A DNA stretch of 64,000 bases from Methanothrix thermoacetophila PT (lineage in GTDB: Archaea > Halobacteriota > Methanosarcinia > Methanotrichales > Methanotrichaceae), in contig NC_008553.1 of assembly GCF_000014945.1 (NCBI RefSeq), forward strand, positions 682,001-746,000, given 5' to 3'. Positions within the stretch are counted from its first letter, which is position 1, and the number at the start of each line of letters is the position of its first letter. The notes below the pieces were generated by a model. It saw only the letters and a list, made by a program, of their open reading frames with translations, had not been told where the DNA came from and did no database searches. Made by a program: the position numbers and the translations under genes. Below are positions 23,182 through 35,810 of the stretch, one piece after another.

Positions 23182-23552
23182 TGATCCGCACCCACTGTAT
23201 GTTTTTCATTATGATGATAGTCGCGGAATACTGGAAATAATATTCTTCTGGGAAATATCATCATATTATAGTCCTTTGCGTCACTTCATGTAAATCCATT
23301 TAAAATCTACTGGATGTGTCATACTTCATAGATGATTTTATGTGACGTGCAATATTATATCAACTTATACGGAATACTATAATATAGGCTTTGTTTGACA
23401 TGGCCGGAACCGGGGATGTTCGGAGAAATCCTGTGAGTTCGGCCTGGTCTGGCTCACGGTCCCTAAAATGTTTTTATATAAAATATCATACATACAATTA
23501 CTTATCGACATGGGCAAATTGTAGGAAAGGGGGTTAGAATACTCGCATGCGA
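23182..23552. other. A/T-rich spacer between two tRNA genes with a G/C-rich island
   Basis: The 370-bp gap is A/T-rich except for a G/C-rich block at 23401-23464, which has a TATA-like box upstream and a T-run downstream (see the ncRNA entry). No protein gene is supported. Confidence 0.5.
23401..23475 (+). ncRNA. Candidate structured small RNA
   Basis: A G/C-rich island in A/T-rich DNA. GGCCG-G-AAC at 23403 can pair with GTTCGGCC at 23437-23444, enclosing a second small stem (GGAT/ATCC). ACTATAATATAGG at 23376-23388 is placed as a TATA box about 20-25 nt before the island, and TTTTTAT at 23471-23477 follows it. No C/D or H/ACA motifs were found and no known RNA family is recognised, so this rests on composition, structure and flanking signals only. 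Confidence 0.35.
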
Positions 23553-31687: not shown

Positions 31688-32701
31688 TCATGCGAGGCTC
31701 CTCCAGTACGCTTTCTGAACGCTTCTTACCTCCTCGATCCTGCGGGTGAGCGGCGCATCCTTTAAAGGCATCACATCAGGAACCTCTCCCTGAAAGGCTC
31801 TGAGGACAGAGACGACTGATTCTGAAAGTGACTCGAGGCGGTAACCGCCCTCAAGCGCTGCAACAATCCGCCCTCCAGCGTGCCTGTCAGCTATATCCTT
31901 CACCAGGCCTGCCAGAGCGCCGAAGCCGTTCTCTGTGAGGCGCATCCCTCCCAGCGGGTCCATCTGGTGCGGGTCGAATCCCGCTGACACGAAGACGATC
32001 TCTGGCCTGAATTCATCTGCTACGGGCACAAGTATCTCTTTATAAACAGCCAGGTATCCGCTGTCATCTATTCCGGGGGGCAGCGGGACGTTCACCGTGA
32101 ACCCCTTCCCCTTTCCATCGCCCACCTCGGTGACCCTGCCGGTGCCAGGGTAGTGCGGATGCTGGTGGGTGGAGAAGTACAGGACGCTGTTGTCCTCGTA
32201 GAAGATCGCCTGCGTGCCGTTGCCGTGATGCACATCCCAGTCGACTATGAGCACCTTTTTCAGCCCAAGGGATTGAGCATACCTCGCGCCTATCGCAACG
32301 TTGTTGAAGACACAGAAGCCCATGCCCCTGTGAGGGGTCGCATGGTGTCCCGGCGGCCTGACGAGAGCGAACACGGGATCCGGTTTCTTCATGACGTGAT
32401 CCACGCCTGCGCAGACGCCGCCCGCGGCCATGAGCGCGACATCGTACGAGTCCTTCGAGAGGACCGTGTCTATATCGAGACGGCCTCCCCCACGCTCGCA
32501 TATGCTCCTAACCTGCTCGATGTAGCGGCGCGAGTGGACGGCCTCGATCTTATCGAGGGAGGCGGGCCTGGGCTCGATTCTGTTCGGATTCAACCCCTCT
32601 GCCTCGATCCTCTCCATTATGGCTATCAGTCGCTCCTTCCTCTCAGGGTGCTCGTGGGTCTCGTGCATGAGATAGACGGGGTGGTAAACGATGGATGTCA
32701 T
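31688..32701 (-). CDS. Histone deacetylase family protein (acetylpolyamine/acetoin-utilisation type)
   Basis: 337 residues from the ATG at 32701. Zinc and catalytic motifs: RPPGHHATPHRGMGFCVFNN at about 115-134, VDWDVHHGNGTQ at about 148-159, and the distal SAGFDPHQMDPLGG at about 239-252. The class II-like architecture indicates a Zn-dependent deacetylase of acetyl-lysine or acetylpolyamines. A TTTTAA box about 28 nt upstream supports leaderless initiation at 32701 rather than the in-frame ATG at 32722. Physiological substrate unknown. Confidence 0.88.
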   Translation of the reverse strand: MTSIVYHPVYLMHETHEHPERKERLIAIMERIEAEGLNPNRIEPRPASLDKIEAVHSRRYIEQVRSICERGGGRLDIDTVLSKDSYDVALMAAGGVCAGVDHVMKKPDPVFALVRPPGHHATPHRGMGFCVFNNVAIGARYAQSLGLKKVLIVDWDVHHGNGTQAIFYEDNSVLYFSTHQHPHYPGTGRVTEVGDGKGKGFTVNVPLPPGIDDSGYLAVYKEILVPVADEFRPEIVFVSAGFDPHQMDPLGGMRLTENGFGALAGLVKDIADRHAGGRIVAALEGGYRLESLSESVVSVLRAFQGEVPDVMPLKDAPLTRRIEEVRSVQKAYWRSLA

Positions 32702-32867
32702 ACAGCTGTTGTATATCTGCATGGCGTTAAAATGCTTTTCTTGTTATGCGGTCAACCAGAGCGCAGCTTGCATCACTTGCACCAAAAACATTCAACCCTA
32801 TCGCATACCATGCAACCGAGAACCTGTTCTCCGAAATCTGGGATTCGTGGAGATAATATGATCTCTG

Positions 32868-33020
32868 CTCTTATCCATCTGATGACTTGCTCGAAGAGAC
32901 AGCAGTCATGCTATGCGCTCGTTTCGACTTATCCTCGACTGCGTCGAAGGCCTGGCAAGCGGATGGGCGCATTAGGCAACCTCCCTGCATGGCCTCCAAG
33001 TTGCTGAAAACATGAGAGTG
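32868..33020 (-). repeat. Dispersed repeat family A, copy 2
   Basis: The reverse complement matches copy 1 at 6840-6964 over TTCAGCAACTTGGAGGCCAT, GCATAGCATGACTGCTGTC and CATCAGATGGATAAGAGC. About 30 bp are inserted in the middle (near 32930-32958). The end inverted repeats are less well kept than in copy 1. Confidence 0.7.
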
Positions 33021-33223
33021 ATGATCCCAACTGGAGTAGAATGACTCAGCACATGAATCTTCACAAATCATCGAATACGAGATCTAGGATCTCCATTCCG
33101 GTGCTTTTCTGTAGAATGCGGTTTTCACAGGAACAGCCCCTCAGAGACCAGCGCCCTTCACAAAACACCTCACGAATCCTGCAATCGGGAATCAGCGTGC
33201 ACCTGCATGATACCACATGACCC

Positions 33224-33338
33224 CCCCACAAGGCCGCATGCATTCATGGTCTCACTGATACGCTGATCAGACTGAGAACTGCCCCCACATCTCGATGCTT
33301 TCCCACAAGGCCGTATGCGTCATGATCTCAGTGATACG
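33224..33338 (+). repeat. Pair of imperfect 36-bp direct repeats upstream of the S-layer gene
   Basis: CCCACAAGGCCGCATGCATT followed by CATGGTCTCACTGATACG at about 33225-33262 recurs as CCCACAAGGCCGTATGCG followed by TCATGATCTCAGTGATACG at 33302-33338. The period is about 77 bp, with only a few differences between copies. Confidence 0.7.
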
Positions 33339-33647
33339 AGCACATGACTCCAGGAGACCATCGGTGGAGTTCAGGATCAATGGAGCTTGCTGTTCGATAT
33401 GCACAGCACGGTACAAGGACCAAAAAGGATATAATAGGGAAATACTCTATCACTACGCTATAATTCCCATCAAAGGGGGAATTTATGGAGGGTGATGAAG
33501 CTATAAGTCTGCGAGATAGATGCCATGGGGTATATGCAGTGCATTCCCTAGATGGCATATTTCAGACTTTGCTGGGGCAATAGTTTTAAGAATAATCAGA
33601 CTGTATGTTGCAAACTAATCCGATATGGGAAGATAGGAGGTTAAAGT

Positions 33648-35810
33648 ATGAATAAGACTGCAATAATGATTACAGCGCTGGTAGCGGTACTAGCGACAGC
33701 GATGGTAGTCGGCGCAGTCGATAAGGTGGAGATCCGGGGTGCTGTTCAGGAGGTTGTGGATGGCGCAACAGTTACCTGGACTCCGCAGAACTTCGCCGGC
33801 TTCTACTACGACATCGATGACGATCTCGGCAACGAGCAGATCACAATGACCATCACCGGGAACAAGCTCGAGGAGCCCAACGGTGTCAAGTACACATCCA
33901 CAGCCCAGGACAACGACTTCGATTTCGAGGACTGGGGCTGGTACAGATCCATAGGATTCCTCGGTGAGAATTACTTCGCCGGTTACAGCGAGAATAAGCC
34001 CACAGTTGATGGTGTGGAGATCGATCCCGAGCTCTACAAGCAGTCCACCGACACGAACACGCTCGTCGATGAGCAGCTCCTGAAGGTCCTGATCGATGAT
34101 GATACAGAGAGGACGTTCACATCCGGCACACCGCTCAAGCTCGCTGACGGCTACGAGCTCATGATCAAGTCGATCGATGTCGATGGCAACAAGGTCTACG
34201 TGGAGCTGATGAAGGACGGACAGAGCGTCGACACAAAGGTCGTCTCCCCGTCCAAGGATGGCGCCACAATGAGTGACAAGACATACTACTACAAGAAGGA
34301 CATCGGCGACACTGAGGATCTCGTCATAATCGGCGTCCACTTCAAGAACGCATTCCGCGGCGCTGACCAGGATATAGCCACAGTCGATGGTATATTCCAG
34401 GTCTCCGATCAGCCGATGGACGTCTCCGTCGACACAGAGTATGACAAGATGAGAATCTCCAGCGTCACCAGGGACACAATCGAGATGGATAACAAGGACA
34501 ACGCCATAACACTGAACAAGAACAAGGACACGACGCTGATGGCTGGCATCCACATCAAGACAGCTGATCAGGACGTCATAGACGCGGAGAACCCGCTCAG
34601 GTTCTACATATACAAGGAGGTCACAGAGCCCGGAACATACGAGATACGCGGCGCTGTTCAGCAGGTCGTTGATGGTGCTCAGGTCACGTGGGACCCGAAG
34701 ACCTTCGCCGGCTTCTACTACGACATCGATGACGATCTCGGCAACGAGCAGATCACAATGACCATCACCGGGAACAAGCTCGAGGAGCCCAACGGTGTCA
34801 AGTACACATCCACAGCCCAGGACAACGACTTCGATTTCGAGGACTGGGGCTGGTACAGATCCATAGGATTCCTCGGTGAGAATTACTTCGCCGGTTACAG
34901 CGAGAATAAGCCCACAGTTGATGGTGTGGAGATCGATCCCGAGCTCTACAAGCAGTCCACCGACACGAACACGCTCGTCGATGAGCAGCTCCTGAAGGTC
35001 CTGATCGATGATGATACAGAGAGGACGTTCACATCCGGCACACCGCTCAAGCTCGCTGATGGCTACGAGCTCATGATCAAGTCGATCGATGTCGATGGCA
35101 ACAAGGTCTACGTGGAGCTGATGAAGGACGGACAGAGCGTCGACACAAAGGTCGTCTCCCCGTCCAAGGATGGCGCCACAATGAGTGACAAGACATACTA
35201 CTACAAGAAGGACATCGGCGACACTGAGGATCTCGTCATAATCGGCGTCCACTTCAAGAACGCATTCCGCGGCGCTGACCAGGATATAGCCACAGTCGAT
35301 GGTATATTCCAGGTCTCCGATCAGCCGATGGACGTCTCCGTCGACACAGAGTATGACAAGATGAGAATCTCCAGCGTCACCAGGGACACAATCGAGATGG
35401 ATAACAAGGACAACGCCATAACACTGAACAAGAACAAGGACACGACGCTGATGGCTGGCATCCACATCAAGACAGCTGATCAGGACGTCATAGACGCGGA
35501 GAACCCGCTCAGGTTCTACATATACAAGGAGGCGACCATTGAGGCCGCTGCTCCTGCACCTGTAGTCGAGGAGAAGCCTGCAGCTGAGGAGAAGCCTGTA
35601 GTCGAGGAGAAGAAGGTCGAGGAGGTTGCCCCGACCAACGTGACCGAGGAGAAGCCTGCAGCTGAGGAGAAGCCCGCAGCTGAGGAGAAGCCTGCCGCAG
35701 AGGCAGAGGCAAAGCCCGCAGCTGAGGAGAAGGGCGCTCCCGGATTCGAGGCGGTCTTCGCAGTGACTGGCCTCCTGGCAGTCGCATACCTCGTCACCAG
35801 GAGGAACTGA
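33648..35810 (+). CDS. S-layer protein with two tandem S-layer (DUF1608) domains and PGF-CTERM
   Basis: 720 residues: signal peptide (TAIMITALVAVLATAMVVGA) and two S-layer domains of about 304 residues each, both opening EIRGAVQ(E/Q)VVDGA. A Glu/Pro/Ala/Lys-rich stalk follows at about 635-695 (repeated EEKPAAEEKP). The C-terminal sorting signal is PGFEAVFAVTGLLAVAYLV followed by TRRN, a PGF-CTERM recognised by archaeosortase A. The domain type matches Methanosarcinales S-layer proteins. A GGAGG ribosome site sits 7 nt before the ATG, and a hairpin terminator follows. The two domains are nearly identical at DNA level (see repeat). Main cell-envelope lattice protein or a paralogue of it. Confidence 0.93.
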   Translation: MNKTAIMITALVAVLATAMVVGAVDKVEIRGAVQEVVDGATVTWTPQNFAGFYYDIDDDLGNEQITMTITGNKLEEPNGVKYTSTAQDNDFDFEDWGWYRSIGFLGENYFAGYSENKPTVDGVEIDPELYKQSTDTNTLVDEQLLKVLIDDDTERTFTSGTPLKLADGYELMIKSIDVDGNKVYVELMKDGQSVDTKVVSPSKDGATMSDKTYYYKKDIGDTEDLVIIGVHFKNAFRGADQDIATVDGIFQVSDQPMDVSVDTEYDKMRISSVTRDTIEMDNKDNAITLNKNKDTTLMAGIHIKTADQDVIDAENPLRFYIYKEVTEPGTYEIRGAVQQVVDGAQVTWDPKTFAGFYYDIDDDLGNEQITMTITGNKLEEPNGVKYTSTAQDNDFDFEDWGWYRSIGFLGENYFAGYSENKPTVDGVEIDPELYKQSTDTNTLVDEQLLKVLIDDDTERTFTSGTPLKLADGYELMIKSIDVDGNKVYVELMKDGQSVDTKVVSPSKDGATMSDKTYYYKKDIGDTEDLVIIGVHFKNAFRGADQDIATVDGIFQVSDQPMDVSVDTEYDKMRISSVTRDTIEMDNKDNAITLNKNKDTTLMAGIHIKTADQDVIDAENPLRFYIYKEATIEAAAPAPVVEEKPAAEEKPVVEEKKVEEVAPTNVTEEKPAAEEKPAAEEKPAAEAEAKPAAEEKGAPGFEAVFAVTGLLAVAYLVTRRN
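33791..35532 (+). repeat. 830-bp near-identical direct repeat within the S-layer gene
   Basis: 33791-34620 and 34703-35532 are the same at a 912-bp offset except for one silent change that I could find (C at 34148, T at 35060, GAC/GAT). The 69 bp immediately before each copy, coding homologous residues, differ at about 18 positions. The abrupt boundary points to gene conversion of an older duplication. Confidence 0.92.

Follow-up and report, generated by a model that had tools for sequence, protein, structure and literature searches.

The gene at positions 33648 to 35810 of the window (the whole 64,000-nucleotide stretch analyzed here, positions 682,001 to 746,000 of the Methanothrix thermoacetophila PT contig NC_008553.1) encodes two S-layer domains that are nearly identical in DNA sequence and lie next to short homologous stretches that are not. 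Does this pattern record a recent duplication, or an old duplication whose halves have since been rewritten from one another? A sequence-only reading of the window had favored the second answer and proposed recent gene conversion between the domains.

The S-layer gene and its two halves

Judged by its profile matches, the encoded protein is a DUF1608/TIGR01567 S-layer protein, with two domains and a C-terminal anchor above the cut-offs (Table 1). PF07752 scored 587 bits against a curated cut-off of 30 and TIGR01567 scored 367 against a cut-off of 122, each over two stretches of the protein, and both PGF-CTERM models (PF18204 and TIGR04126) exceeded their cut-offs. The solved relative is MA0829 (PDB 3u2g), which matched the window protein with an E value of 1.9e-33. 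The mature N terminus of Mbar_A1758 is given as ADSVEIR, and its counterpart in the window gene is VDKVEIR. Table 1 of PMC3361143 lists three such S-layer genes in the Mthe set, and the window's genome likewise gave three matches. In the expression table of PMC10470525, Mthe_0677 stands at 304 to 392 times the median, Mthe_0149 at 17 to 30 times, and Mthe_1177 at 4 to 5 times. The text of that paper names mspA as the most expressed surface-associated gene, and its table places Mthe_0677 above mspA (182 to 206 times the median).

Table 1. Features of the S-layer gene in the window
Feature	Position	Strand	Basis
S-layer protein gene, 720 aa, Mthe_0677-like	33648..35810	+	ORF, Pfam, NCBIfam; length and domain count as Mthe_0677 in Table 1 of PMC3361143
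Acidic P/A/E-rich stalk and PGF-CTERM, beside two PF07752/TIGR01567 domains	within product of 33648..35810		
Probable signal peptide	33648..33716	+	hydrophobic N terminus of the translation, judged by eye
S-layer domain 1, 298 codons	33729..34622	+	Pfam
5' edge of domain 1, not homogenized	33729..33790	+	18 of 62 sites unlike domain 2
Homogenized tract, copy 1, 830 bp	33791..34620	+	half-to-half comparison
Sole difference within the tract (C; T at 35060)	34148..34148	+	half-to-half comparison
Interdomain linker TEPGTY	34623..34640	+	translation
S-layer domain 2, 298 codons	34641..35534	+	Pfam
5' edge of domain 2, not homogenized	34641..34702	+	comparison with domain 1
Homogenized tract, copy 2, 829/830 identical to copy 1	34703..35532	+	half-to-half comparison
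PGF-CTERM sorting/anchor segment, residues 698 to 719	35739..35804	+	Pfam

The near identity of the two domains over 830 bp, as first read from the sequence, was borne out. The two copies of the tract, at an offset of 912, are equal at all positions except one, where codon GAC in domain 1 faces GAT in domain 2, a synonymous difference. The sites that flank the tract, 33790 and 34621, both differ from their counterparts. The sharp 5' edge with its 18 differences also stands, but the homologous stretch that holds them is 62 bp and not the 69 bp first proposed: upstream of 33729, a signal peptide faces the linker, and there is no homology between the halves. At the other end, no more than 2 bp separate the end of the tract from that of the homology, so that a sharp edge inside the homology exists at the 5' side only.

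The core halves of the window gene thus differ at 1 site, against approximately 171 synonymous sites, whereas the window core differs from those of the congeners L004 and L005 at 83 to 92 of 828 sites (loci are labeled L, and genomes are labeled G). This indicates that the last homogenization is recent relative to those species splits. Two congeners carry T at the site equivalent to 34148 in both halves; the C in domain 1 is therefore most simply a new mutation that arose after homogenization.

An assembly artefact, in which one copy was duplicated or collapsed, could be suspected here, as near-identical repeats do break short-read assemblies of this gene: the contigs of G003 end in the repeat, and G002 shows a single domain. 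The window, however, belongs to a single-contig genome of 1,879,471 bp, the copies have distinct edges on both sides, and they differ internally at one position. Moreover, two-contig assemblies (G018 and G019) also show two domains, with halves that group together, as does the one-contig assembly G030 with respect to domain number, though its gene L034 is an exception on the tree described below. An artefact is thus very improbable, and the distinct edges, the internal difference, and the single-contig genome led us to reject it. Chance likewise does not account for the likeness of the copies. Short-read Methanothrix assemblies may nonetheless break or collapse the S-layer gene.

Halves compared within genes and between species

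Relatives were collected by protein search in 6 congeneric, 60 related, and 50 family genomes, the sets overlapping. The main counts rest on 20 two-domain genes with PGF-CTERM, among which L036 and, slightly, L035 are without the start of domain 1; L036 is part of the 20-gene counts and of the tree and lies outside the 19-gene bin and run counts. Left out were the same contigs from another collection (L053, L054, L055, and L056, equal to L005, L024, L026, and L050), partial or broken genes (L007/L059, L021 to L023/L071, L014, L041/L062, L046/L065, and L052/L060), single-domain genes (L013/L015/L058, L068, and L069), and L066, L067, and L070, which were not classed. Genes without PGF-CTERM were placed among the paralogues.

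In all 20 orthologues, the identity between the two halves of the gene (82 to 98% in nucleotides and 81 to 98% in amino acids) exceeded that of the best match in the other 19 genes. L004 is marginal, with 94.3% between its own halves and 93.8% to L005. When partial genes were added, one exception appeared, the first domain of G003 (L007), which is 100% identical to that of the window over the 273 codons present. These sequence comparisons confirm that, except at the ends of the block, the halves within each species are more alike than the same half is across related species, as the concerted evolution proposed in the sequence-only reading had predicted.

A core tree of the 40 domains gave the same picture, with the halves as sisters in 19 of the 20 genes. 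The exception is L034, where the alternative has support of 85/68, and the halves of L051 are joined at low support (54/43). Forcing the tree to unite all first domains made it 4249 log-likelihood units worse, and this arrangement was rejected (p-AU of 7.7e-5). Against rate-weighted shuffles, 18 of 19 genes had identical runs between their halves that were longer than expected (p < 0.05), L004 and L025 only narrowly (p of 0.048); the run in L035 is no longer than expected by chance (p of 0.138). In L001, L005, and L024, the tract is full-length and almost the same, and its 5' limits agree to within a few base pairs; the other genes have shorter tracts at differing places.

The ends of the domains follow another rule. 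Among clean sites compared across three congeners (L001, L004, and L005), the edge at 33729 to 33790 holds seven sites fixed by domain position and none by species, the core at 33791 to 34600 holds none fixed by position and 92 at which the halves agree within each species, and the last 22 bp of the domain hold one position-type and no species-type site; the domain as a whole has 51 more sites of mixed type. Fisher's test of edge versus core gives a p value of 7e-11, which is descriptive, as the sites are not independent. Across 19 genes, the within-gene distance was the smaller one in 2 for the first 60 bp of the domain, in 11 for the next 90 bp, in 17 to 19 for the five core bins, and in none for the last 30 bp. 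Family-wide, the residues of the two halves agree at 85 to 98% in most ten-residue core blocks, at 77% in one core block that adjoins the 5' edge, and at 55 to 73% in the terminal blocks.

Edges that are position-specific in three species, together with cores that are species-specific, show that the duplication is old and that homogenization has been recurrent. The claim of an old, homogenized duplication in place of a fresh one thus holds, owing to the position-specific edge differences common to several species. Had a separate tandem duplication occurred recently in each species, core halves would also cluster by species on the tree, as they do. The seven edge sites contradict such duplications, and so do the edges more widely, which in 17 of 19 genes lie closer to the same-position edge of other species. 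We consider per-species duplication highly unlikely, and a fresh duplication was rejected because the edges are shared across species.

Purifying selection, if strong at the level of sequence or codons, could be thought to keep the halves of a gene alike without any recombination, and the abundant expression noted above for Mthe_0677 would suit it. Against this, the halves agree species by species at the 92 core sites, 36 of which sit in codons without any amino acid change, and pS is 0.23 to 0.28 between the window gene and L004 or L005. Cores that vary between congeners while the halves agree in each led us to reject purifying selection alone, which is next to impossible as the sole cause.

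Recombination between the halves and its alternatives

Cores that change between species and yet agree within each gene require homologous recombination between the halves. Very probably, the duplication is old and its cores have been overwritten repeatedly, half to half, by recombination, most simply by gene conversion. An ancient tandem duplication would have left two homologous domains, approximately 912 bp apart, in the main S-layer protein of Methanothrix and its relatives. Homologous recombination between these halves, most simply nonreciprocal gene conversion, on one chromosome copy or between two, would then have copied the core of one half over that of the other, repeatedly and separately in each lineage, with a very recent last event in the window gene. 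Polyploid methanogens could supply templates for such conversion. The proposal of conversion made from the sequence alone therefore fits in its recent homogenization, and has to be widened from a single event to a recurrent process, seen throughout the family and in some members of its sister family.

As the edges (approximately 70% identity here) and the paralogues described below (45 to 60%) escape and the cores do not, the process would depend on identity and reinforce itself. High sequence identity would be needed, so that similar cores would stay similar and go on converting. The first ~60 bp and the last ~30 bp of each domain adjoin nonhomologous DNA; they would seldom have been covered, would have diverged, and would now evolve by domain position. 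The two-domain paralogues, after drifting to 45 to 60% identity, would have escaped conversion altogether.

Cycles of unequal crossing-over, from two to three and back to two domains, are the main alternative route, as growth to three domains and a later contraction can produce internal patches no different from those of conversion. Single-domain genes with PGF-CTERM, as the reciprocal product would be, occur in three short-read assemblies (L013/L058, L068, and L069), where they could be collapsed repeats or true crossover products. On the other hand, no three-domain member with PGF-CTERM was found among the scanned open reading frames of the relatives, and all 20 orthologues have two domains. 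Such cycles are unlikely to have homogenized the halves in place of conversion. A cycle through a one-domain state was excluded, as it would erase the inner edge at the start of domain 2, whose old position-specific sites persist. We infer both the preference for conversion over a two-to-three-to-two cycle and the existence of an identity threshold.

Selection may also have played a part, favoring either lattice modules that match or terminal strands specific to their position. The suggestion of identical lattice modules maintained by conversion went too far, since over the 20 genes the halves differ by up to 19% of their amino acids. On these sequences, identity of the halves is an outcome in some lineages rather than a demonstrated requirement, and selection for their likeness may contribute. 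A stronger version, which we regard as rather doubtful, is that selection maintains the homogenization because a lattice works best with the same surface on both modules, that the terminal strands at the junctions serve as a position code that has to be shielded from conversion, and that S-layer identity spreads one module at a time, and from species to species too, as at the G003 locus. If so, species-specific surface changes would be copied into both halves in concert. A structure prediction of the two-domain ectodomain from 15 aligned sequences had a mean pLDDT of 53, with the N-terminal strands of each domain among the better blocks.

Paralogues, related systems, and possible exchange of the locus

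The same genomes hold two further two-domain members, in which the halves are 58 to 61% (type B) and 46 to 48% (type C) identical. In six genomes each, the closest match was within the gene in 0 of 6 for both types, and the first and second domains of these paralogues form separate clades (support of 100/100). Among 13 other genes without PGF-CTERM that were measured, the halves are at most about 65% identical in nucleotides in 10 and more alike in L006 (78.1%), L042 (77.0%), and L057 (88.2%). Further paralogue open reading frames in the relatives, such as L028-2, L061+1, L063, and L064+1, lie outside these 13. L006, a 645-residue second S-layer gene of G004, has halves that match the main gene over long stretches before diverging; it looks like a mosaic between paralogues, as far as its sequence tells.

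In a sister family, the closest match lay within the gene in 7 of 9 genes, which were chosen for hits covering nearly the whole query and not at random, and in 11 of 19 once ten genes from another genus were included. The halves of L077 were cut by hand coordinates for the nine-gene count, and all were recut for the 19-gene count, outside which L089 and L091 lie. In the other 8 of the 19, the closest match is in another species, which points to episodic homogenization. On these comparisons, homogenization is wider than one family and less regular in the sister family.

Long-lasting gene conversion in methanogens is described for mtrA-1 and mtrA-2 (PMC4632066), and the likeness is close: an old methanogen duplication whose domains have been homogenized repeatedly across lineages, with an adjoining part kept distinct. 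As described there, mtrA comprises two neighboring genes of an enzyme complex, whereas here the two halves belong to one surface-lattice protein and only the domain ends are unconverted. A survey of recurrent concerted evolution (PMC6053082) reports 26 prokaryotic genes, mostly for proteins that belong to complexes, with seven archaeal cases, all of them in methanogens. These genes share with the window gene a recurrent similarity that is higher within than between species, but the survey compares paralogous genes and not halves of one gene; its archaeal table holds no S-layer gene, and the term "S-layer" is absent from its main text.

The Methanosarcina protein MA0829/SlmA1 (3u2g) has the same tandem DUF1608 architecture as the window gene, and its accounts (PMC3361143 and PMC5744192), in the parts consulted, describe the tandem duplication and do not mention homogenization. 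The S-layer glycoprotein genes of Haloferax (PMC5867893) are also archaeal S-layer genes shaped by recombination, although there, as reported, it acts between strains and diversifies, in contrast to exchange between the halves of one gene. The literature covered on S-layers with gene conversion or concerted evolution, on DUF1608 tandems, and on Mthe_0677, a scope outside which most subscription papers fall, contained no homogenization of S-layer halves. The window gene therefore appears to be a new case of a known phenomenon, long-lasting concerted evolution, at work within a single gene. It comes with built-in natural controls, namely, the escaped two-domain paralogues in the same genomes and the escaped domain ends, which make the identity threshold of archaeal gene conversion testable.

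The sequences may also record exchange between genomes. A contig of G003 (L059) is approximately 98% identical to the window at 32405 to 33615 and 100% identical at 33616 to 34549, with flanks at approximately 84 to 89%. G004 (L022) has the upstream part in common with the window, with the same limit near 32400, inside the open reading frame at 31688 to 32722. Unless the contigs of G003 and G004 are chimeric, the S-layer locus seems to have been exchanged between species as well.

Two dispersed repeats were observed in the window. Positions 32976 to 32986 correspond to the empty site of an element of approximately 190 bp, which G003 (L059:2139-2328) and G004 carry between direct repeats of approximately 11 bp. 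With 48 matches in G004, 6 in G003, and 1 in the window's genome, it looks from its sequence like a small element of transposon origin that has multiplied in G004. The second, a repeat of approximately 117 bp at 23266 to 23383, has two matches in its own genome, including itself, and dozens in G002, G003, and G004 together.
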